Virus record (IMG/VR): IMGVR_UViG_3300046009_004257
Location: 1-34,289 of that record
Length of the DNA: 34,289 nucleotides
Origin: a virus
Direction: 5' to 3' (one strand)
Part shown: positions 10,501-26,694 of the stretch, one piece after another
How positions within the stretch are numbered: position 1 is the first letter of the stretch
How the letters are laid out: each line of letters opens with the position of its first letter
The notes under the pieces: generated by a model
What the model was told of the DNA's origin: nothing
Database searches by the model: none
The model's input: the letters and a program-made list of their open reading frames with translations, nothing else
Made by a program: the position numbers and the translations under genes

Positions 10501-11883
10501 TACGTGTTAAAAGACGGCACAGGTGACGAGCAGACAATTGAACGATATGAAATTGTTGCTAGTGTTTCTGATTCAAACAATCCATCACCACGAGCGCAGG
10601 TATTGCTTGCTGTATCTAACGGCAAAATCAAAAAGATTACGCCAAGCGGTGTAAGTTCGCCTGTTGGCGTTGATACTTTGCCGCAACCGGAACTAGATGC
10701 TAATGCGCCGTATGTTGACTGCGCGGTGCTGTTTGGCAAAGTGTATTTTACTGATGGTTTGGCATACCGCGTGTTTGACCCGCGCAACGACACGGTGCTG
10801 GAGTGGAGAGCGCTTGATGCTGGAACGCTGCCTAACCGGTGCAAACTTGTAACAAACTGGCGTGGCCGTGCGGTTTTAGCTCGTGGTGCTGACGATCCGC
10901 ACAACTGGCACATGAGCGAGCAAGGCAATCCTACCGGTTGGGACACTTTCCCAGCTGTTCAAACAGCTACGCAAGCTATCAGCGGTAACAACGCTCGCGC
11001 TGGCTTGTGTCCTGACTTGATCAACAGCCTCATTCCTTACAACGACGACTTGCTGTTGTTTGGCTGCGATTCGTCGCTGTGGATGATGCGCGGTGACCCG
11101 ATGGCCGGCGGTGTGTTTGATCTTGTATCGGATGTCACCGGCGTTGCGTTTGGACGCTCGTGGGCTAAGGATCCAGAAGGCACGCTGTACTTCTTCGGAT
11201 CGCGTGGCGGCGTGTACATCATGAAGCCAGGCAGCGTGCCTGTGTCCATGACGCAGTCCACGATTGAGCGGCGGTTGAACAATGTCAACTTGTCGCAGTT
11301 CTACGTCGAGATGTTCTGGAACACCTACGATGACGGCCTACACGTCTTCCTAATGCCGTTTACCGACACGGCTAGCCGCACTAAGCACTACTTCTGGGAA
11401 CGCAAGTCTGGTGCGTGGTACGAAGACACCTTTGCGCTAACGAAGCAGCCCTCTGCCGCAGTTGTCATTGACGGTGACGCTGCTGATGACCGCTGCTTGC
11501 TGATCGGAACTTACGACAGCAGCGTTGTGCGCTGGGACAAGCTTGCTACAAGCGACGACGGCCAGCTTATCGACGGCAAGGTGCTTATTGGCCCCATTGC
11601 GCCCGACGATAGCGAGTTTGACGCACGCATCACCAACCTTGCAGCCGTGATGGCAAACCAAGGTGCGGTCAACTACAAGCTCTACGCTAGCACTACGCCG
11701 GATGACAAAGGCCAGCCAGTTGCAAGCGGGCAGTTTGTCCCTGGGCGCAACCCAATCCACCTTGTACGCGCCCGAGGGGCATTTGTGTGGATGGAGCTAC
11801 AGCAAGCCAATGCGTTTACGCGGTGGTCGCTAGAGTCTATTCGCCTAGATGCGTACCCCGCAGGAAGGAAGCGTAATGGCTGA
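7519..11883 (+). CDS. Tail nozzle (gp12/TTPB-type) protein with inserted lectin-like domain
   Basis: A 1454-residue protein; podoviral nozzle proteins are usually about 600-1000 residues. The start (residues 1-60, FPLGGLNDNVA then GGARS-like INVRG and GRIRGAQRSGL) and the C-terminal half (about 790-1454, with HNWHMSEQGNPTGWDTF, LIPYNDDLLLFG, GTLYFFGSRGGVYIM) are the repeated beta-propeller strands of such nozzles. Between about residues 300 and 785 lies extra sequence with hallmarks of a LamG/concanavalin-like domain: WYDAS at 309, WFDVSGAGRN, CFDFDGASQLY, and the terminal EGYLAWKWG (744-752) plus HPY (780). That part is coded in AT-richer DNA than the rest. The protein closes the DNA channel and presents the appendages; the insert would lie outside and may bind glycans. 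It overlaps the fibre gene by 8 bases. Confidence 0.75.
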   Translation: MANFELQFPLGGLNDNVAQSKQPSGTTNEAINVRGQDPITGRIRGAQRSGLTKYVVESMEARVKRFEKVVYDNRQLRYVPLDSSNIKLIWEKANNNSNASTYCVVDYKENVYVVDAGRTVQKFNKNGVLVYTFAPAGLEDVNLYIRGLAVDDAGGVWIGTGHKNAADLAISPSQLANLTSLSKTRIWKYKESESDVPPVLDYAFEPKLTIEKLVLQQGMLYAAANDPLLEVGYVVAYDEIYSTGMEEAARRKMPYPLCDIDVLADGKVCFTSPVNLNRYEKHSQQYPNYRPTAVDWTPAQIPNDKLWSWYDASQMEGVTDNERVTAWFDVSGAGRNLGCTLTETGPKYLATGWAGQPCFDFDGASQLYTVGGQPTTPQSSDGSASAFPNYANAKWAMHIVFRPQVAEDENPITAPTYLCGVDTSLPEKHDLHVAVHKLQNLMFPGQVNPNKVLLYATPDSALSWSKLSQGYNGTNVQENPNPPFATSGNQMSYIGAGAYKFPAPATLSTVNNASVLTIIYAVGSGDGTTELECHYRFNGQPIDRWRGVQISASAGFYLGRQAPGLSASTTNWFKGQVAEIITLHNLDQSYVPQYPRTLGLACKALTQTFTATKDTYSNNGLGQGEEPNLISPYYTSTTGNTFPYLYFNYILLCDPVNGVDLLRGDVVEIYGQIRGVLGPRREYTYPDQGDSFDTYYTGMPITYPFTWGGSSTTAIVNPASLHSAAATFAPNITNANATLCEKIEGYLAWKWGIWHLLPKGNHTPPQLAMNTTYVFGNWPHPYRNAPPSSVDTDTVSKAAVIASPLAVAGCLESIDGPYRWVVDGLSGFGAGVGLRIMATEAAFYTMGDPQFTGSTNDGTYSWPNVNGNGRKLVYNAATQVVSDAWSGTLASSSTTAISATSDYIPHLSKDAFDNVYYPFTFAGGAYGVGWSIVGKDAGNTPIALLSKDTNGDVVLQAAPEFVSPEYRIGNSISADFPSIPDPLDPDTYPRAENVYVLKDGTGDEQTIERYEIVASVSDSNNPSPRAQVLLAVSNGKIKKITPSGVSSPVGVDTLPQPELDANAPYVDCAVLFGKVYFTDGLAYRVFDPRNDTVLEWRALDAGTLPNRCKLVTNWRGRAVLARGADDPHNWHMSEQGNPTGWDTFPAVQTATQAISGNNARAGLCPDLINSLIPYNDDLLLFGCDSSLWMMRGDPMAGGVFDLVSDVTGVAFGRSWAKDPEGTLYFFGSRGGVYIMKPGSVPVSMTQSTIERRLNNVNLSQFYVEMFWNTYDDGLHVFLMPFTDTASRTKHYFWERKSGAWYEDTFALTKQPSAAVVIDGDAADDRCLLIGTYDSSVVRWDKLATSDDGQLIDGKVLIGPIAPDDSEFDARITNLAAVMANQGAVNYKLYASTTPDDKGQPVASGQFVPGRNPIHLVRARGAFVWMELQQANAFTRWSLESIRLDAYPAGRKRNG

Positions 11884-12886
11884 CCCCAAGCGTATTGGCT
11901 TATCTGGGCAAGCACGCGGTATCGACCCTCAACGCCAACGGCGCAACTCGCTGACAACAGACGAGACGATTGCCGCGCCGCTGACGCTAAACGAACGAGG
12001 GCAGATTACGCTTGCGCTGACGGGGCCGTTTACGCTGGACAAAGAAGGTGCGCTGGTACTGAACATCGCGCCGCCGTTGACGGTAACCAACAATAGCCCG
12101 TTGACCTTGTCGTTGCAGACGGACACAACGCTCAAGACCGCAAACGGCAAGCTGACGACAAATATTTCTACGGCCACACCGCGTGCGCCAGGCTTGATGC
12201 CCGCGCTAGACGGCGATACTTCTAAGTTTTTGTCGGGCGACGGCGTATATCGTGCGCCAAGTTACCCGCTTCCGCGCTTAGACGAGTGCGCACCACCGAC
12301 AGACACTACAAACTTAGATAGTTCAACTACTGCACATGGACTGCTTCCAAAGCTCTCTGGTGTCGCTACTGAAGTTTTGCTTGGCGATGGCACTTGGGCA
12401 ACGCCGCCAGGTCCTAGTGGCACAGTAACAAGCGTATCTTTGTCTGCGCCAACGGGGTTAATCGTTAGCGGTTCGCCTGTTACAAGTTCAGGATCCTTAG
12501 ATTTAACTTTTGATGTTGGATATTCAATTCCAACAACGAGCAGCCAAGCAAATTGGGATAGCGCATATGCAGCTACATCCAGTCTTGGAAATTCAGCTAA
12601 TTTAAATGTTGGAACAACTGCTGGAACTGTAGCGGCTGGCGATGACTCGCGCTTCGTTACCGACCTCGGCTACACGGCGGCGACACGCGACCTCACGAGC
12701 AGCACGGGCACAGCGGTAAATTTACCGCTGTTTACCGACACAGAAGACGGCCTAACTCCTGCGTCTGGCGGCGGCACAACCAACTTCCTACGCGCAGACG
12801 GCACTTGGGCAGCTCCCGGCGGCGGCGGTGGTAGCGGACTAGACCAGCCTGCGGTCATGGCCCGTATGGCGTTCGGAGGATTCTAA
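11876..12886 (+). CDS. Tail fibre with adenovirus-shaft-like repeats
   Basis: A 336-residue protein. I start it at 11876, where AGGAAGGAAGCGTA gives a good ribosome site and an 8-base overlap with the nozzle gene; an in-frame ATG at 11849 lacks one. After a basic N-terminus, residues 35-99 form four 15-17-residue repeats (PLTLNERGQITLALTG, PFTLDKEGALVLNIAP, PLTVTNNSPLTLSLQTD, TTLKTANGKLTTNIST), the pattern of the triple beta-spiral of adenovirus fibre shafts. Three later modules carry the phage-fibre motif FLxGDGxWxxP (118-128, 168-177, 304-314), with a GTVTSVSLS segment between. It ends in a Gly run and VMARMAFGGF, a tail that may serve as an attachment peptide. Its role is host recognition or carrying a receptor-binding protein. 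Confidence 0.75.
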   Translation: MADPKRIGLSGQARGIDPQRQRRNSLTTDETIAAPLTLNERGQITLALTGPFTLDKEGALVLNIAPPLTVTNNSPLTLSLQTDTTLKTANGKLTTNISTATPRAPGLMPALDGDTSKFLSGDGVYRAPSYPLPRLDECAPPTDTTNLDSSTTAHGLLPKLSGVATEVLLGDGTWATPPGPSGTVTSVSLSAPTGLIVSGSPVTSSGSLDLTFDVGYSIPTTSSQANWDSAYAATSSLGNSANLNVGTTAGTVAAGDDSRFVTDLGYTAATRDLTSSTGTAVNLPLFTDTEDGLTPASGGGTTNFLRADGTWAAPGGGGGSGLDQPAVMARMAFGGF

Positions 12887-17514: not shown

Positions 17515-20500
17515 ATGAACGAACTCGACCAATTCTCCTTCATGGACGAACCGAGCCAAGCGGTGGCATCACCGGCACAGCTTGGCGCAAACGCTTTGGA
17601 TCAGTTTGCCTTCATGGATGAGGAGGCCGACTACACGATTGGCGAGTATTTTCAGCAAGCAGGTAGCAGCTTTGTTAGCGGGTTAAGTGGCACTTTTACT
17701 AGTGCTATTGAAGGCTTGGGCATTGCTATTGAGGGCATGACGGGCGAGTCCAGCATTGATGACTGGGCGCGTGAAACACAGGAATCCATTAACAACGCTG
17801 TCCCTGGCGTAATGGGCTTGCAGAACTCGTGGACGGCCAAGGTGTCTGGCGCGTTTGGTTCGGCAGGCGGCTTTGTGCTTGCATCTGCTGCTACAGGTGG
17901 TTTGGGCGGCGCAGTAGGCAAAGGCTTGTCGGGCGTAAGTATGTTTGGCCGTACTGCGCTGACAGGCGCGGAGGCGGTTGCCGCCGGTGCAAAGGTGGCG
18001 CAGGCAACGCAATTGGTAACCGCTGGTTCTTTGGGTGCGCTTGGCAACGCTGCTGCGCGGTACGACGAAGCACTCATGCTTGGGAAGTCAGAGGAAGACG
18101 CATGGAAGTCTTACTTTGTCGGCATGGGCATTGGTTCGCTGGAAGCCATGCCTGTCGGTCTAAACCGCGCCGCTATGCGTTTGGGGCGCGTTAATAAGGC
18201 ATCTGGCGGTGCGCTGCGCAACTTGACTGTCGGCCAAGTCATGCTGGCTGAGGGCTTAGAAGAAGCTGGTCAAGAGATGCTGTCGGAAGGCTTAAATCAG
18301 CTATCCGACTACGCACTAAGCATTAAGTCAGCCGAAGAAGCGTTTGACTTCCAACAGCTTCTTGAATCGGGCGTGCTTGGCTTCTTGCCTGGTAGCGCAA
18401 TCGGTGGCCTGACGGCGCGGTCTACTATTGCTGCTAACCTTGCGGAAGAGCGCAAGAAGGTCGAGGCCGAAGAGGAAGCCAAGCTCACGGCAGACATTGC
18501 CAAGCAGCGCGAGGAGTTTGAGGCGCAAAAAATTGGCGTGGTCGAGGAGTCGGCCAAGCAAGCACAAGAGTTGGTTGCTGCCGGTGAAGCGGAGTTGGCG
18601 CGACTGCAAGGGCCAGCAGAGGCAGTTGCGGGAACAGAGCCTACACCGATTGGAACGCCAGAGGAAATTGCGGTTGTTGAACAGCAGTTAGAACAAGCCC
18701 GCAAAAACCGCGATGTGCTAGTCGAGCAGCTTCGCGCTGTGACGGCAGCACCTACGCAGGAAGAAAAGCTGTTGCAGGCTGGCGCATACGGTCAAGCTCA
18801 AGCGCGTGCAGAGCAGGCTGGCATGGGCGAGCAGTTCCGTGCTGCCACAAAGCCAGGTGCTGAACGAGTTTTGGCCGCAGAGGAACAAGCAGCTTGGGAT
18901 GAAAGAAAAACCAAATGGGCTAAAGCTCCGATCTTCAAAGAAAAGTACAACTCGCTAAAAGATGCGAAGTTGGTTGTTGCCGCAACAACAGAACAGCAAA
19001 ACGCAGAAAAGATTTTGACCGACCTTGGTGTCAAGGTTGAGTTTATTGATCTAGGCAATGACGATACGGCATTTGAGGGGATTGAGTCTGGCAACACTAT
19101 TTTCTTAAATGCTCGGTTATCTGGCGATGCAATGTTGCGCAAGGTTGCGCGGCACGAGGCATTCCACACTATTTTCCGTAGCAAAGAAGGCCGACAAGCA
19201 TGGAATGCAACCATGCAACGACTCTCGGCTGCTGCGCCTAATGTGTGGGCCGCTGCAAGACAAAAAGCACTTGGCGAGCTTGTTGACACCAAAGGCAGCG
19301 CAGAAGCATTAAAAACAGCCCTGAAAACGCCTGAGGGCGTAGAAGAATTGTTGACCGAGCAAGGCTCGTCTGCCGCAGACATTTTCAGCGCGACCATTGA
19401 CGCGCTTGAGGCAAACCCTGCACTTGCCGAAGAGGTCATGCAGGCTGATCCGACCTTCTTCCAGAAGTTATTGGATTGGGTCAAGACTAAACTGAACAGG
19501 CTAGGGTTTAAGTACGAGACACTAGCTGACGCTGATCGCAAGGCTATTGAGAAGCTCCCCAAGCTGCTGTACCTAACGCAGGCCGGCGAGGTTGAGGTCG
19601 AAGCTGGAGCCAACGAACGCATTGCAGGCGCACAGGTGCTTATGCGCCTGCTTAAGGCCGCAGAGGAAGGCACGGTAGCCGCTGCCTCTGGTCGCGAACG
19701 GCAAGCTCGTGTGTTTGCTACGCGCACGCTAGGTGAACTAGAAGCGGGTAGCGTAATTGATGCCAAGCGGCGCGAACTATTAGAAAAAGAAGAAGCCGAG
19801 GTACGCGCTAAGTACGAAGAGCGTCGCCAGCGCGTTGTAGAAGCTGCACGCAAACGCTTGGCTCGCATTAAACCATCTGACGAAGAGTGGCAAGTAATCG
19901 ACGCTGTAGGCGCGGCAAATACAGAAGAAGCGCAGTTAGCCGCTATTCAGTCGTTGCCTGACTTACCTGACGGGATTACAGACGAAGAACTGCGCAGCTA
20001 TGTGCAGGTGGCTAACGAGGTCTATGACCGCAACCAAGAAAAAGAAGCTCGTCAAGCCGAAATTGCTGAGAATCGCAGGCAAGCCAAAGAACGCCAAGAA
20101 ACTGCCGCAGAAAAATTGCGTGTAGCGCAAGAAGCTACATACAAAAACAAGCTAACTGACCTGCGTGCAGCAGATCCTAAAGGTAATGCGCTAAACCAAA
20201 TTCGGCGTTTGATTAATGCGGGTAGTACCGAAGAGGCAGCGCGTAGCATTGCTCGCGAGTATGTAGGCAAGAACGCAACCGCAGATCAAGTAGACGAAAC
20301 AACGGTTGCGTTGCTAACTGCTGCTGAAAATTTGCAACGCAAAGAAAAAGAAGCGGCAGAAGCAAAAGCGGCAGCAGCGCAAAAGCGTAAAGATGAGGCG
20401 GAACAGCGCAAGGCAACAGAGGAAGCTAATCGCACCCGTCGCCAAGAAGCTCGCGCTCGGCAACAGCGTGAGTTGCTAGAACGCCGCATTGAGGCTGACA

Positions 20501-23500
20501 AAGCTCGCCGTGCAGAAATTGCTGCCAAGCAAGATGAAATGATGGCGCAGGCTTATGCGTTGACGCAGGACAAGCTAGAGCAGCAGCGGCTAGAATTGGC
20601 TGAAAAGACCCGTGTGCAGGAAGCTGCATTACAAGTACAGCGGGAAAAGGTCGAAACGCTAAAACGCCAAATTGCCCAGCGCGAAGAACTAGCAGCCAAG
20701 GCGACGGAGGAGGCTGATAAACGTGCAAAGGAACAAGCTGTGGAGCGTGCGCGGCGAGAAAAGATTGCTGCCGACAACCAGCAAGCGTTGCTGCAAGCTC
20801 GCGTAAAAGCCGCTGAGGCCGCAGAAGCTCGTCATCGCGAATCTATGGCGATGCGGCAGACCGAATTAGCTGAGTACACCCGCTTGCGCGAAGCTGACAT
20901 TGCAGCGCGTCAGGCATTGCTAACAGAGCGCACGGCAGCGCGTGCAGCCGCCGAACAACGCTTGGCTGAGGCTAAGACGGAAGCTGAACGCAAGCAGGCC
21001 GCAAAGGATGCAGAAGCCGCCAAAGCTGCACAGGAAGCCACAGAACGCGATGCGCAGCTTGCTGAAGAGGAAGCTAAAAAAGCCGAAGAGCGCGAAGAAC
21101 GCAAACGACAAAAGCTGCCTACGGTTGTCGCTGGGCGTACCGTGCCAGGGCAATTGCGCGTGGGTGACATTGTCATGTTCCGCAACCGCGCCGCCAAGGT
21201 CGTGGAGGCTACTGGTAGCGGTTTGGATCAGCGCGTCAAATTGCGCCCCATTACAGACGCTGAAAACCAAATTGCGATGGAGGCCGAAGAAGCTGGAACA
21301 AAGGATTGGTGGAACACCATCTCGTTCCTAGGCGAGTGGGTAAAGGTGATGATGAACGATTCACGCATCACCGCACGCATTGCTCGACGCAGCGATGTTG
21401 AGGTGCTAACCGAAGACGGCAAGAAGATGTTTGAACGCCGTCTGGAAGCTGATGTTGCCCGTCGCGAGGGCGACGCGCCGCTGTTCTCAGCTAAAGGACA
21501 AGCCATCACTCCAGAGATGGAAGCCGAGTACATGGCTGCGGCAGAGGCTGGCGATCTGGCAACTGCGCAGCGGATGGTGGATGAAGCGGCACAAGCTGCT
21601 GGGTACACAATTGGCCCGGTTTATCACGCTGGAGAAAAATCGTTTAATGAATTTAAAACATTAGCTGAGCAAGCAGAGGAAACTGGAGAATATTACGAGC
21701 CAGAAGGTTATGACGGTGGAAATCTAGGCATTGGATTCTATTTTACTCCAGACCTAGCTTATGCGGCTAAATATGGAAAAGCGCGCAAGTTTTATTTGAA
21801 GATTGAAAAGCTTTTAGACACAAAAAACACAAAGGTTCAAAAGCGATTTAGTCAGCTGCTAGATGAAATGAACGAAGACTTAGGTGACGTTGCGCAAGGC
21901 GAAGTTATTGATGCTTTGCTAGATGAAACTAATTCAACAGGTGTTGTTGGCTATGGCGTTGGCGGTTTTTCAAATGGCTCTACGGAATACATGGTGCGCC
22001 GTAGCAAGCAAGCTAAATTAGCCGATCCTGTCGCTTACGACAATAACAACAACATCATCCCGCTGTCGCAGCGGTTTAACGAGCAAGTTGACGACATCCG
22101 TTTTTCCGTTAAAGGTCAAGCGATTACACCAGAGATGGAAGCTGAATACATGGCCGCTGTTGAAAGCGGTGACATGAACACAGCCCAGCAGATGGTTAAC
22201 AAAGCAATGGATATTGCTGGAATTGTTATGCCAACTGTGGTTCAACGTCAAACTAATTATGCGGCAGATGTAACAGTTCAAAACAATAGAGCCTATTCGC
22301 CAATTGTACGAGATTTGCTTCGTAGGCGAGCTGAAGGTGAAAATATTACGCAGGCAATGATTAATGAAGCAATTGTCAATAATTTCCCTTCAAGTCTGGT
22401 AAAAGTACCTAATACGGTGGCAGATTTGCCATCTGAAGCTGAGGTTATCAATGCGCTAGACGAAAGACAAAAAGTGCAGCGCATTGAAAAACAATCTATT
22501 CCTATTAACAGTCAAGTAACGCTGCGCCAAGACGTTCCATCGTGGACTCGTAACAAAGTTGGCGTGGTTACTATTCAAACTAAAAACGGCAAAGCCTATT
22601 CGCAGGCAGCAAGAATTTTAAACCCAGATTTTGTTGTAAATGAAAAAGAGTCATTGAAAATTGCTATGGGGGAAAGCAAAAAACCTCATATTGCAATTCG
22701 AGGTACATGGTCGCCTGATCAATCAATGCCGTTTAATTTAAAAAAATGGACGCAGGTTGGTTACAACCCAGATAGACATAGTTTTTATTACGACAGAGCC
22801 ACAATGATTGAGGTTGTTGGCGGATCAGAGGCATATCAAATTGGAAATACTGTTTTTGTTAAAGATGCCAAATACATTAATGACCCTGTGCTTTATGACG
22901 CGCAAGGCAACGTAATCCCGCTGTCACAACGCTTCCAAGATACGATTGACGACATTCGTTACTCGGTAAGAGCTAAAGTTCCTGCTGCCGTTGGCTTTGC
23001 TGGTGGAGGCACGTTTGAGATCGCGTTGAGCGATGTACTTGACACGCAGTTAGCCGTTGAGATGAAACCTGACATTGCCGAAGCGTACAACCGCAACGCG
23101 CAGCGTCCTGCCACGGTTGCCAAGATTGGCGATGTTGATGCCGAAGACTTCAAAGGCAAGGTGCTAGCTCACTTCAGCCCGCCGTGCGTTGACTCGTCGT
23201 TGCTGCGTAGCGGCCAAGGTGTGAACAAGGCCGAGGAAACTGAGCGCGGGCGTGAAGTAGCCAACATTATCCGCGTGGCTCAGAACCCGATTGTCGTTAT
23301 TGAAAACGTTAGGGAATACGGCAAATCGGAAGCGTACAAGCTGATCACAGACGCGCTTACGGAATCGGGCTACACCTGGGACGCGCACGTGTACAAGGCG
23401 CAGGACTACGGTTCGCCCAGCAAGCGTCAGCGGCTGTTTGTTCGCGCTGTAAAAGAAGGCGAGTTGCCGCCGCGTCCTGAGCCTACTCACTCCAACAAGC

Positions 23501-26500
23501 CCACCTTGTTTGAAGCCCCGTATGCTTCGTGGGGCGATGCCATTGCCGATTTGCTGCCCACGCTGCCTGAGTTTGAAGGCCCGCTACCGCCGTATGTGTT
23601 GAAGTCGTTGGCCGCGCAAAGCATCAACCCGAAGTCACCCAGCAAGGCGTACTACATCAGCGGCACGCAAGTACACGGGCTAGCACCTTTGTCGCCGTTT
23701 GATAAGCCCTCGCCTGGCATGGTTGCAAGCGGCGCAGAAACCCCGCGCATCCTTATGCCTGATGGCCGCGTCCTGCGCGTCACGCCTGAGGCGATGAAGC
23801 GTCTTATGGGCTTTGGCGCAGAAATGCAGCTGCCAAGCGATCCGAAGCTAGCCAAGCGCATTGTGGGCAACGGTATCCCCAAGCCGCTGACCCGTGCGGT
23901 TGTACTGCCGCTGCTAGAGTCGCAAGGCGTGCTAGACACGCAAAGTCCGTTGTTTTCGGTAAAAGGCAAGGGCGGCGAAAAGCCTGGCAAACCTGCCAAG
24001 CAAAAACCTGCTACTCGCGTTTCGGCAACTGAAGTTAAGCGTGCTGCGGCGGAATTAAAAAAAGCTCAAGCGCGAGCAGAACGCAGTCGATTAAAAACGC
24101 TACGCGAAAGTATGCGTCGCGTTGAAGGCTTGGCCGCAATTGCAGAAAAAGGCGGCGAGGGCACAGACATCGGTGAGGCACCTGGCACAGCCATCGCTGG
24201 AGCAACTGAGGAAGGTCGAGCCTACACGCGAGCATTGCGCGAAGATATGGCCGACATCCGCGATCAAATCTTGCCTGATCTAAAAGCGGACGACGAAGCG
24301 CGTGCTGAAGCTGTTGCCAAACTTGACGCAGACTACGAAGGCACAAAGCGTCAGCTATACGAAGAGATTACCGAGACTGGCAATGTAAGTGAGCCGTGGA
24401 AGGTGTACGCCACTATGGTTATTGCTGCTCGCGAAGCTGAAGCGGCAACGACAGGTCGCATGACCGTTGACAAATACTTGGCTGCATATGAGGCCGAGGC
24501 GTATGACGCGATTGTCAAACGTGCTGCTTCTGCTGGCCTGCGCGTGCGCAAAGACTCAGTAATGAGCGCACGGAAGCGCAACAAGGCGCATTTGTTTGCT
24601 GAAACCTCGTCGCTACGTCGAGAAATGCGCAAGCTGCGCAAAGCCATCGACACCGGCAATAAAAAGCAACGCGATTCAGCTGAGAAGAAAATTGCCAAAA
24701 TGCGGCAACAGCACGCAGAGGCAGTCGTGGAGTTCTTTGACTCCATGCAGCAGCAAGGCTACGACATTGACGATATGTACTCGTACCTTGCCAAGGGCGA
24801 TGTTGTCAGCTTCTCGCGGTTAGCACGCGGCGCGGCTGACGCTCGCGTGCGTACAGACTTGGCTTCTGGCCGTGTGCAGTCTGCTTGGGATGGCCTGATG
24901 GAAATCCGCTTGGCTTCCATGCTGTCAGGCATGGGAACCCATGTGGCAAACATCACCGGCAACGCCGCCATGCAAACGCTGCGCACTACGCGCCAGCTAG
25001 CTGAAGTCTTGACTAACATGGTCTACCGCGATCCCAATAGCGCGGATTACGGTGACTTCAAAGCCTACATGACAGGTTGGCTGCGGTCGCTGTCGCGAGC
25101 TACGCGCAACTTTGTAATGGCTTATCGCACCGATATGCCGGTGTTTGAGGTCGAGCTTAGTGCAGAGGCCGCGAGTGAGTTTGCTAACCAAACAAACGCC
25201 ATCCCTGGCATCATTGGCCGCATCCTGCGTTTCCCTTCGTTAACTACGCTGCGTGCGTTCGACGAGTTCTTTAAGACAATGGCGGCGTACACGGAAACAG
25301 CCAGCTTGGCGTACCGTGATGGTCGTTCTAAGGGCATCAGCGGGCCTGCGCTAGAGAACTACATCGACGGCGTGCTGGTCAACTACAACGACCCGCTGTG
25401 GCAAGAAGGTTTGGATCGCGCTTTGGAAACCGTGTTCCAAGGCAAGGGCGACAGCCTGACCCGCATCTTGCTGTCAACTCGCGAGTATTTGAACAACAAC
25501 CCAACAACGGTTCCTATCGGCACATACTTGCTGCCGTTCATTAAAACGCCGTTGCAGATTTTCAAAGTCGGCCTGAGTATGCCGATTCACCCTGTGATTC
25601 CGTTGATGCGTTGGATCAATACCTTGCGCGGTATTGAGTACACAAAGGCCCAGCAAGTTACCGATAGTGCAAACGCTTTGATTTCCGCCGGCATGATGAT
25701 GCTTGCCTACGGCCTGCTTGGCGACGATGACGACGACGAAGTGGCGGCTACAGGTGCTGCGCCTGACGAGTACACGGAGCGTGAGCTTATGGCCCGTGTC
25801 GCTCCAGCCTACAGCATTAAAGGCCCTGGCGGTGATTGGTACAGCTATGCACGCATTGAGCCGTTTGCTACGGCCTTCTCGGCTATGGTTGACCTGTCAC
25901 GCGCCCAGCAGCGTTTAATGCGCGACGATGTTCCGGATAAATGGTCACAGTCCTTTGGCATCGTGCTAAACAACGCGCTAGGCCAAATTGAGGATAAGAC
26001 CTTCCTGCGCACAGTTGGCGATGTTGCCAAGATGGTTCGCGACCGCGAGCAGATCAATGTGGCGCGATTTACCAAGGATCTGTTTGTCACGCCGATGATT
26101 CCAAACTTAGTGCGGCAACAAGTTGGCGCAAGCGATCCCTATGTGCGTAACACCTCCGTGCGGGAATACGAGGATGTTTCGGCGTGGGAAGCAGCAATGC
26201 AGGTTGTGTCGTTCCAAGTCTATCCTGACGCTAACCGTCCAGACGCGCCGCCGATCAAGTACGACCTGTGGGGGCGGTCTATCGAGAAGCCAGGGCGCAG
26301 CGAGTTTGCCCGCAACTTCTCGCCCGCCAAACTGGAGTACCAAGAAGAAGACATTCACAAGCTCGACCGTCTCATCGTCACTTTTAACGACAAGGTCGAG
26401 GACGGAAAATTTGGCGGCGATGTCCAAAAGTACCTGCCGCGTGCGGTGGAATACCGCATTAAACGAAACGACAAAGAGTATTTGCTGACCAAAGAAGAGT

Positions 26501-26694
26501 ACGCCCGCGTGTCTAAAGAGGCAGGCGAAAAGGCAGCTCAGAGGCTACAATACCGCCGCTTAAACTACGATGACCCTACCGAACGGGACATCGAAGTTAT
26601 CAAGGAGCAAATCAGCAAGTCGCGCAAGCTGATTATTGATAAAGTCCTGCGCGAAAGACGGCTCACACAAAACCAAACGCCACAAAACCCATGA
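17515..26694 (+). CDS. Giant polyvalent virion protein: zincin, ART-like, C5-methyltransferase, LPD38-like
   Basis: A 3059-residue protein. Residues 4-12 and 28-36 repeat the motif LDQF(S/A)FMDE. Residues 60-310 are Gly/Ala-rich and partly hydrophobic. HEAFH at 547-551 is a zincin-type motif. Residues 843-1200 are a coiled coil, followed by a small beta-barrel-like piece (1206-1245). Residues 1325-1531 are an ART-like module: YH at 1370, GFYFTPD around Tyr1409, Glu1491. Residues 1531-1817 are a second module with the same borders but another core. Residues 1820-2142 are a cytosine-C5 methyltransferase: FAGGG 1828, PPC at 1889-1891, ENV 1930, RQR 1971, GNGIP 2118. Residues 2463 to about 2900 resemble LPD38 (LASMLSG, THVANITGN, RAFDEFF). 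Polyvalent proteins are thought to enter the host with phage DNA. The gene follows two ejection genes, so virion location is likely. Confidence 0.82.
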   Translation: MNELDQFSFMDEPSQAVASPAQLGANALDQFAFMDEEADYTIGEYFQQAGSSFVSGLSGTFTSAIEGLGIAIEGMTGESSIDDWARETQESINNAVPGVMGLQNSWTAKVSGAFGSAGGFVLASAATGGLGGAVGKGLSGVSMFGRTALTGAEAVAAGAKVAQATQLVTAGSLGALGNAAARYDEALMLGKSEEDAWKSYFVGMGIGSLEAMPVGLNRAAMRLGRVNKASGGALRNLTVGQVMLAEGLEEAGQEMLSEGLNQLSDYALSIKSAEEAFDFQQLLESGVLGFLPGSAIGGLTARSTIAANLAEERKKVEAEEEAKLTADIAKQREEFEAQKIGVVEESAKQAQELVAAGEAELARLQGPAEAVAGTEPTPIGTPEEIAVVEQQLEQARKNRDVLVEQLRAVTAAPTQEEKLLQAGAYGQAQARAEQAGMGEQFRAATKPGAERVLAAEEQAAWDERKTKWAKAPIFKEKYNSLKDAKLVVAATTEQQNAEKILTDLGVKVEFIDLGNDDTAFEGIESGNTIFLNARLSGDAMLRKVARHEAFHTIFRSKEGRQAWNATMQRLSAAAPNVWAAARQKALGELVDTKGSAEALKTALKTPEGVEELLTEQGSSAADIFSATIDALEANPALAEEVMQADPTFFQKLLDWVKTKLNRLGFKYETLADADRKAIEKLPKLLYLTQAGEVEVEAGANERIAGAQVLMRLLKAAEEGTVAAASGRERQARVFATRTLGELEAGSVIDAKRRELLEKEEAEVRAKYEERRQRVVEAARKRLARIKPSDEEWQVIDAVGAANTEEAQLAAIQSLPDLPDGITDEELRSYVQVANEVYDRNQEKEARQAEIAENRRQAKERQETAAEKLRVAQEATYKNKLTDLRAADPKGNALNQIRRLINAGSTEEAARSIAREYVGKNATADQVDETTVALLTAAENLQRKEKEAAEAKAAAAQKRKDEAEQRKATEEANRTRRQEARARQQRELLERRIEADKARRAEIAAKQDEMMAQAYALTQDKLEQQRLELAEKTRVQEAALQVQREKVETLKRQIAQREELAAKATEEADKRAKEQAVERARREKIAADNQQALLQARVKAAEAAEARHRESMAMRQTELAEYTRLREADIAARQALLTERTAARAAAEQRLAEAKTEAERKQAAKDAEAAKAAQEATERDAQLAEEEAKKAEEREERKRQKLPTVVAGRTVPGQLRVGDIVMFRNRAAKVVEATGSGLDQRVKLRPITDAENQIAMEAEEAGTKDWWNTISFLGEWVKVMMNDSRITARIARRSDVEVLTEDGKKMFERRLEADVARREGDAPLFSAKGQAITPEMEAEYMAAAEAGDLATAQRMVDEAAQAAGYTIGPVYHAGEKSFNEFKTLAEQAEETGEYYEPEGYDGGNLGIGFYFTPDLAYAAKYGKARKFYLKIEKLLDTKNTKVQKRFSQLLDEMNEDLGDVAQGEVIDALLDETNSTGVVGYGVGGFSNGSTEYMVRRSKQAKLADPVAYDNNNNIIPLSQRFNEQVDDIRFSVKGQAITPEMEAEYMAAVESGDMNTAQQMVNKAMDIAGIVMPTVVQRQTNYAADVTVQNNRAYSPIVRDLLRRRAEGENITQAMINEAIVNNFPSSLVKVPNTVADLPSEAEVINALDERQKVQRIEKQSIPINSQVTLRQDVPSWTRNKVGVVTIQTKNGKAYSQAARILNPDFVVNEKESLKIAMGESKKPHIAIRGTWSPDQSMPFNLKKWTQVGYNPDRHSFYYDRATMIEVVGGSEAYQIGNTVFVKDAKYINDPVLYDAQGNVIPLSQRFQDTIDDIRYSVRAKVPAAVGFAGGGTFEIALSDVLDTQLAVEMKPDIAEAYNRNAQRPATVAKIGDVDAEDFKGKVLAHFSPPCVDSSLLRSGQGVNKAEETERGREVANIIRVAQNPIVVIENVREYGKSEAYKLITDALTESGYTWDAHVYKAQDYGSPSKRQRLFVRAVKEGELPPRPEPTHSNKPTLFEAPYASWGDAIADLLPTLPEFEGPLPPYVLKSLAAQSINPKSPSKAYYISGTQVHGLAPLSPFDKPSPGMVASGAETPRILMPDGRVLRVTPEAMKRLMGFGAEMQLPSDPKLAKRIVGNGIPKPLTRAVVLPLLESQGVLDTQSPLFSVKGKGGEKPGKPAKQKPATRVSATEVKRAAAELKKAQARAERSRLKTLRESMRRVEGLAAIAEKGGEGTDIGEAPGTAIAGATEEGRAYTRALREDMADIRDQILPDLKADDEARAEAVAKLDADYEGTKRQLYEEITETGNVSEPWKVYATMVIAAREAEAATTGRMTVDKYLAAYEAEAYDAIVKRAASAGLRVRKDSVMSARKRNKAHLFAETSSLRREMRKLRKAIDTGNKKQRDSAEKKIAKMRQQHAEAVVEFFDSMQQQGYDIDDMYSYLAKGDVVSFSRLARGAADARVRTDLASGRVQSAWDGLMEIRLASMLSGMGTHVANITGNAAMQTLRTTRQLAEVLTNMVYRDPNSADYGDFKAYMTGWLRSLSRATRNFVMAYRTDMPVFEVELSAEAASEFANQTNAIPGIIGRILRFPSLTTLRAFDEFFKTMAAYTETASLAYRDGRSKGISGPALENYIDGVLVNYNDPLWQEGLDRALETVFQGKGDSLTRILLSTREYLNNNPTTVPIGTYLLPFIKTPLQIFKVGLSMPIHPVIPLMRWINTLRGIEYTKAQQVTDSANALISAGMMMLAYGLLGDDDDDEVAATGAAPDEYTERELMARVAPAYSIKGPGGDWYSYARIEPFATAFSAMVDLSRAQQRLMRDDVPDKWSQSFGIVLNNALGQIEDKTFLRTVGDVAKMVRDREQINVARFTKDLFVTPMIPNLVRQQVGASDPYVRNTSVREYEDVSAWEAAMQVVSFQVYPDANRPDAPPIKYDLWGRSIEKPGRSEFARNFSPAKLEYQEEDIHKLDRLIVTFNDKVEDGKFGGDVQKYLPRAVEYRIKRNDKEYLLTKEEYARVSKEAGEKAAQRLQYRRLNYDDPTERDIEVIKEQISKSRKLIIDKVLRERRLTQNQTPQNP
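21487..21588 (+). repeat. Module-entry repeat, copy A (inside the giant gene)
   Basis: Codes for residues 1325-1358 of the giant protein (SAKGQAITPEMEAEYMAA and on to MVDEA). It is the entry of the ART-like module. Copy B, 618 bases downstream, codes for nearly the same residues, with synonymous changes at many third positions, so the duplication is not recent. Confidence 0.85.
22024..22107 (+). repeat. Module-exit repeat, copy A
   Basis: Codes for 28 residues, 1504-1531 (DPVAYD..., IPLSQRFN, DDIRFS), that close the ART-like module. The same 28-residue exit sequence with moderate change closes the second module at 22882-22965. Confidence 0.85.
22105..22206 (+). repeat. Module-entry repeat, copy B
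   Basis: Codes for residues 1531-1564 (SVKGQAITPEMEAEYMAA and on to MVNKA), matching copy A at most positions. It opens a second module whose core is not ART-like; that core contains LRQDVPSW, LKIAMGESK and a GYNPDRHSFYYDRAT stretch. Confidence 0.85.
22882..22965 (+). repeat. Module-exit repeat, copy B
   Basis: Codes for residues 1790-1817 (DPVLYD..., IPLSQRFQ, DDIRYS), immediately before the methyltransferase domain. It aligns without gaps with copy A at 22024-22107. Confidence 0.85.

Follow-up and report, generated by a model that had tools for sequence, protein, structure and literature searches.

The giant protein and its modules

The window analysed here is the whole 34,289-nucleotide stretch of IMG/VR virus record IMGVR_UViG_3300046009_004257 (positions 1 to 34,289), an SU10-like phage contig with an adaptor match (PF24175, E 8.4e-9), a weak SU10 portal match and a terminase match. 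Its largest gene (17515-26694, + strand) was delimited from the open reading frame (ORF) and its translation and encodes a 3,059-residue polyvalent (injected-type) phage protein. This protein bears a series of short junction motifs, and we describe here these motifs and their relation to a zincin-like metallopeptidase domain embedded in the same polypeptide. All protein features of the window given below are encoded on the + strand.

The protein has the hallmarks of polyvalent proteins. Several unrelated enzymatic domains (a C5 methylase, a weakly matched ART-PolyVal domain and the zincin) share one large polypeptide, which is linked to structural and packaging genes (adaptor, weak portal and terminase) and has a C-terminal part resembling an internal virion protein family (PHROG 6651, E 1.8e-9). 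The ART-PolyVal domain (residues 1369-1504; 21619-22026) was a weak Pfam match below the gathering score (PF18760, E 4.9e-4). An AlphaFold2 model of the ART module with both its junctions had a mean predicted local distance difference test (pLDDT) score of 83, with the core above 90. The second module (22207-22881) gave tblastn matches in Roseobacter phage proteins and a weak PF25735 match. Its resemblance is to parts of proteins whose genes lie beside those for portal and terminase in the Roseobacter phages CRP-9 and CRP-207 and in phage MW202701; those proteins are without head, tail (the conserved elements described below) or zincin. The third module (22996-23901) is a C5 cytosine DNA methyltransferase with its C5 methylase match at residues 1828-2129 (PF00145, E 2.1e-20; phrog_116, E 2e-28).

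A short motif marks each module border

The original prediction, made from the sequence of the window, placed the same short motif at four borders of this protein, and all four copies are present: LFSAKG (site 1, residues 1323-1328; 21481-21498), RFSVKG (site 2, residues 1529-1534; 22099-22116), RYSVRA (site 3, residues 1815-1820; 22957-22974) and LFSVKG (site 4, residues 2146-2151; 23950-23967). The protein contains exactly four copies of the pattern [FY]S[AV][KR], starting at residues 1324, 1530, 1816 and 2147, each at a module border, against a chance expectation of about 0.25 calculated from the composition of this protein together with the 819-residue upstream protein. The predicted bracketing also fits, the ART-PolyVal and C5 methylase matches both lying between motif borders. 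Loosening the pattern to [FY]S[AVLIT][KR] gave a sole extra match, YSIK at residue 2766. This match in the C-terminal region reads NSIR in the close relative L002 (relatives are designated by L numbers) and is probably due to chance, and we did not accept it as a fifth site.

In the AlphaFold2 model the two junctions included are low-confidence linkers flanking the well-folded ART domain. Around site 1 (model residues 31-36) pLDDT was below 50 for most of the stretch (model residues 23-29 and 31-35), and at junction 2 it was below 50 for model residues 239-244 (site at 237-242).

Some of the sites adjoin longer conserved elements. Junctions 2 and 3 terminate a conserved tail, DPV.YD..N.IPLSQRF....DDIR, of which the two copies delimited in tail alignment A2 are DPVAYDNNNNIIPLSQRFNEQVDDIR (tail element 1, 22024-22101) and DPVLYDAQGNVIPLSQRFQDTIDDIR (tail element 2, 22882-22959). 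A repeated head, QAITPEMEAEYMAA.E.GD..TAQ.MV, comes after junctions 1 and 2, and blastn of the window against itself found the DNA of the two copies to be 87% alike. The head of module 1, QAITPEMEAEYMAAAEAGD.. (21499-21588), is also found in relatives; that of module 2 lies at 22117-22206. Junction 4 carries the motif with no adjoining head or tail and hence the motif is independent of either element.

The sites match within proteins and vary between phages

Relatives were gathered with the tail as bait, which found 530 tail-encoding places in viral contigs and 108 in one-per-species genome contigs. We took 80 loci from each of these sets plus 40 from a head query, and about 165 proteins were left after removal of near-duplicates. 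A generic consensus module served as one bait, solely for fetching loci; the test statistics come from the fetched DNA. The pattern used to fetch tails excluded the site, but the ranking of matches used a query ending in FSLRG, which may have inflated the proportion of S-type tails, whereas the within-protein permutation tests are unaffected. Two alignments of variant tails yielded no searchable stretch.

The spacing of the relatives' tails is fixed, and most of them have DIR-[YFW]-S as the final conserved residues; in some, the aromatic is followed by Q, H, A, R, M or other residues. Such non-S variants were matched within the same protein at borders that have no tail: YHPG/YHPG in L101, YQRFD/FQRFD in L180, FQLV/FQLA in L079, FRVD/FRVT in L074, FRRV/FRRA in L148 and YAIR/FAVR in L099. 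When the tail site was compared with the tail-free region before a head in 93 proteins, 1.56 of three residues were shared versus 0.78 upon permutation (standard deviation 0.055, p=5e-5), and the same within-protein test of the 28 proteins with non-S sites gave 1.46 versus 0.60. Anchoring on [FYW]S alone gave identities of 0.47, 0.55, 0.37 and 0.24 at positions +2, +3, +4 and +5 versus about 0.1 (p about 0.001 or less), with no matching at positions -5 to 0, +6 or +7. The matching persisted when tails located directly before a head were excluded. Moreover, the tetramers of a protein's own sites recurred elsewhere in the proteins 66 times, versus 16.2 (standard deviation 4.3) for permuted tetramers.

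These comparisons indicate a site element of about six residues, a fixed aromatic followed by five residues that vary between phages and match within a protein. As in self-cleaving polyproteins, repeated cognate sites lie in linkers between modules. A private site lacking the aromatic at the tail was seen in L082 (about residues 3019 and 3170), where NNAASL at the tail is still matched by NFAASL before a head. Most ORFs in which a module ends the protein were short or fragmentary.

It is most improbable that the motif arose by chance or is no more than the usual C-terminus of the ART fold, devoid of a function of its own. The tail element is indeed the conserved end of ART modules, but the motif is found without a tail at two junctions of the present protein (1 and 4) and at many of the relatives' sites, its number expected by chance is the 0.25 given above, and private variants match across unrelated contexts.

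Modules are exchanged at the borders, but the motif is not a DNA scar

The original prediction allowed that the motif was only a recombination scar or linker. One half of this alternative found support in L002, which lies on another contig. Its protein shares sites 1, 3 and 4 with that of the window, but a single, different module occupies the span from site 1 to site 3. The methyltransferase cassette with its two flanking sites (22903-24001) is 92.7% identical to L002 by blastn, as compared with about 71-80% in most of the gene. The identity peak together with the different L002 module shows that modules have been exchanged at these borders. A motif kept through module swapping, or copied from border to border as a homology cassette, would accord with this exchange of the methyltransferase cassette and sites 3 and 4 with the L002 lineage, and with the head and tail elements being common to unrelated modules. 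However, identical codons were used at 100 of 206 matched residues (78 expected from codon usage alone) and thus about half of the matched-site codons differ; in the window itself the serine codons of the four sites are TCA, TCC, TCG and TCG. The 11 residues upstream of matched sites are unrelated, the matching ends sharply at +5 with none upstream, and junction 4 has neither head nor tail. As codons and flanks of matched sites differ, selection acts mainly at the protein level. We therefore rejected a DNA scar or site copying as the explanation on the codon evidence, although cassette exchange does happen, and regard such an origin as very unlikely.

Other parts of the gene compare differently with L002. 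The N-terminal parts 18079-18389 and 19356-19745 stay about 80% identical in DNA, and a charged, coiled-coil-like region (about residues 870-1160; window 20120-21000) is strongly diverged. A second, separate C5-methyltransferase-like gene was identified by eye near the L002 polyvalent gene (L002:13951-15441, - strand).

Searches of named phages with the tail or the whole module gave almost nothing, and searches of plasmids gave no matches. Hence, these searches could not link the motif to any phage having a published virion proteome. Virion proteins of giant size are known, such as the 4,515-residue protein of phage JC1 (PMC9144972).

Elsewhere in the window, a self-match on the opposite strand disclosed a perfect 22-base inverted repeat at 12710-12731, inside ORF 11849-12886.

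An embedded zincin-like domain tracks the sites

The HEAFH motif that the original prediction noted upstream of the junctions is present at residues 547-551 (19153-19167), and its H, E and H residues are invariant in alignment A7. A zincin-like metallopeptidase domain was detectable around it at residues 423-726 (18781-19692) by a profile built from the relatives' zincins with the window left out (E 9.4e-7; hhalign probability 96%). The probable third zinc ligand is E610 (19342-19344) in the sequence EELL, which aligns with EEIIAD of the relatives in an EE column at least 90% conserved in A7. The protein thus has the HExxH plus a candidate downstream acidic ligand on a second helix, as expected of zincin-like metallopeptidases. 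The AlphaFold2 model of the domain had a pLDDT of 64 overall and 75-86 in the core, and its order of helices and strands fits the zincin fold. The best VIA-align matches of the model were mostly HExxH metallopeptidases, but at Z scores of only 4-5, so that the zincin fold is tentative.

Among the complete relatives of at least 2,000 residues, 68 of 76 have an HExxH, and in 67 of these 68 the first HExxH lies upstream of the first tail. In an earlier set HExxH was observed in 65 of 72 proteins versus about five predicted by shuffles. Large ORFs of the same loci that lack tail and head served as the control, and there HExxH occurred in 6 of 117, 7.4 being expected by chance. The extra copies of a protein's own sites are found only downstream of the zincin: 32 were counted there versus 5.0 expected (13 versus 2.8 in the last 700 residues), and upstream there were 3 versus 2.3 expected.

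Site similarity between proteins was correlated with zincin similarity (r 0.22, p 2e-4), and its correlation with tail similarity was not significant (r 0.06, p 0.15). The zincin effect remained when either the C-terminus or the N-terminus was held constant (r about 0.20, p=3e-4), and the effect of either terminus vanished when the zincin was held constant (r about -0.01). In a stricter test site similarity rose from 1.4 for unrelated zincins to 3.3, 5.2 and 8.9 as zincin similarity increased. The site code thus co-varies with the embedded protease, in a correlation from which descent has been partly removed.

Given the within-protein matching and this co-variation, the motif is very probably a sequence-specific recognised element rather than a mere linker, and its most plausible recogniser is the embedded zincin. 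To this extent the original prediction, that the zincin cuts at these sites, was supported.

What acts at the sites

If the sites are recognised, they could be cut in trans by another protease, either a phage head-maturation enzyme or a protease of the host, the zincin then being an effector or having some other role. Head proteases do cut other virion or ejection proteins, as in the actions of P1 Pro on DarA (PMC12810830) and of SPN3US gp245 (PMC10052503), and in eight relatives sites occur although no zincin is recognisable. However, Pfam recognised no other protease among the structural genes of the window, the site sequence tracks the zincin in preference to either terminal region, and private codes shared by the sites of a single protein would not be expected of a host protease. 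We consider another cognate protease an unlikely agent and rank it below the embedded zincin.

It is a little less likely still that the motif is bound but not cut, for example as a docking or packaging signal at the borders for loading of the giant protein into the head or for guiding its ejection. The virion-type C-terminal region would suit such a role. However, the motif is spread over the linkers that separate modules and is not gathered in one packaging region, there are no extra sites upstream of the zincin, and co-variation with the peptidase domain would go unexplained unless the zincin were itself the binder.

We consider it probable that the embedded zincin cuts at the junction sites. 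The 3,059-residue protein would then work like a viral polyprotein: its N-terminal zincin-like metallopeptidase, with HEAFH and the probable ligand E610, would recognise the six-residue site aromatic-S-[VA]-[KR]-[GA]-x and cut it in the flexible linker at each module border. These cuts would free all three modules (ART, second and methyltransferase) from the protein's N-terminal portion and from its virion-type C-terminal portion, perhaps during assembly or perhaps after entry. If the scissile bond were just after the aromatic residue, the fragments would be of about 144, 23, 32, 36 and 102 kDa. The version of the site would be particular to each phage lineage and matched to the zincin of that lineage, and a captured module would have to carry or acquire the local version.

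Several points weigh against this interpretation. The original prediction held that no homologue should carry the motif in the absence of any zincin, and a minority of relatives do so: 8 of the 76 complete relatives (L082, L061, L100, L071, L089, L222, L144 and L103) keep the motif without HExxH, so that a protease in cis does not accompany the sites in every member. Several of these (L100, L071, L089 and L222) still have matched sites, and the relatives' zincin profile detected no domain in the proteins that lack HExxH. Site similarity was also significantly affected by how alike the remainder of the proteins is (p 0.005), and hence common descent may play a part. Fold searches with the zincin model were weak (Foldseek E >1; Z 4-5), and the statistics of recognition cannot separate binding from cutting, since the same values would result from a motif bound, but not cut, by the zincin or by another partner. 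We found no experimental evidence of cleavage, and the N4 virion RNA polymerase, which has a metallopeptidase (MPTase) domain, is packaged unprocessed (PMC5512222).

Six of the relatives lacking HExxH (L071, L089, L100, L222, L061 and L082) had no recognisable zincin, nor was any other Pfam protease seen in the part searched, L089 being outside the Pfam scan. The sequence EEIVH of L071 and L089 was considered as a zincin motif and rejected, profile comparison giving no support for homology. L144:5405-14350 encodes a MuF-C domain protein with tail sites, and an overlapping downstream ORF in another frame has an HExxH; this may be a split or frameshifted gene. A trans-acting or divergent protease is therefore conceivable for L144.

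Comparison with known systems

On balance, we lean toward the broader view that a true polyprotein strategy serves the injected effectors of tailed phages, among them many uncultured phages and prophages. In this strategy a lineage-private six-residue cleavage code would be read by the protein's own embedded zincin and moving cassettes would have to match the local code. Since 2017 it has been predicted, but with no sites named, that the zincins of polyvalent proteins cut; the motif supplies predicted sites for each protein together with the matching protease. If this is true, the private code of each protein would reveal its module borders and hence unknown effectors, and the zincins would be a natural set of sequence-specific peptidases of differing specificities.

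A parallel is found in the polyproteins of eukaryotic RNA viruses, in which an embedded protease acts at repeated cognate sites between the mature units and the consensus within each virus changes with its protease. As a proposed polyprotein, the present protein shares these features. It differs in that it belongs to a double-stranded DNA tailed phage, its protease is a zincin rather than a cysteine or serine protease, and its cleavage is predicted.

The P1 proteins DdrB, which has a C-terminal MPTase (PMC5512222), and DarA, which is cut near its N-terminus by the head protease Pro (PMC12810830), share with the present protein (where cutting is predicted) the character of virion-destined defence proteins that are cut, although no series of sites between effector modules has been described for DarA (PMC12810830). 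The gp245 protease of SPN3US likewise cuts proteins within a phage head in a sequence-specific manner, such specificity being predicted here too, but it is a separate prohead protease that mostly removes N-terminal propeptides rather than releasing modules from one polypeptide (PMC10052503). The N4 virion RNA polymerase is similar in being a giant injected-type protein with a zincin.

Zincin autoprocessing of polyvalent proteins was predicted by Iyer et al. in 2017, with the analogy to RNA-virus polyproteins (PMC5512222). Their proteins have in common with ours a giant multidomain virion-type architecture with a zincin-like MPTase, ART and a DNA methyltransferase, but the methyltransferase is C5 here and theirs are mostly adenine methyltransferases fused to helicases (PMC5512222). 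Text searches of the main text of that paper found no junction motif, site code or matching of zincin to site (PMC5512222). The motif strings were also not found in the literature searched, which is weak evidence as papers seldom print such strings and subscription journals were mostly outside the search. The junction motif, the site code and the matching of sites to the zincin are thus additions to the proposal of Iyer et al.

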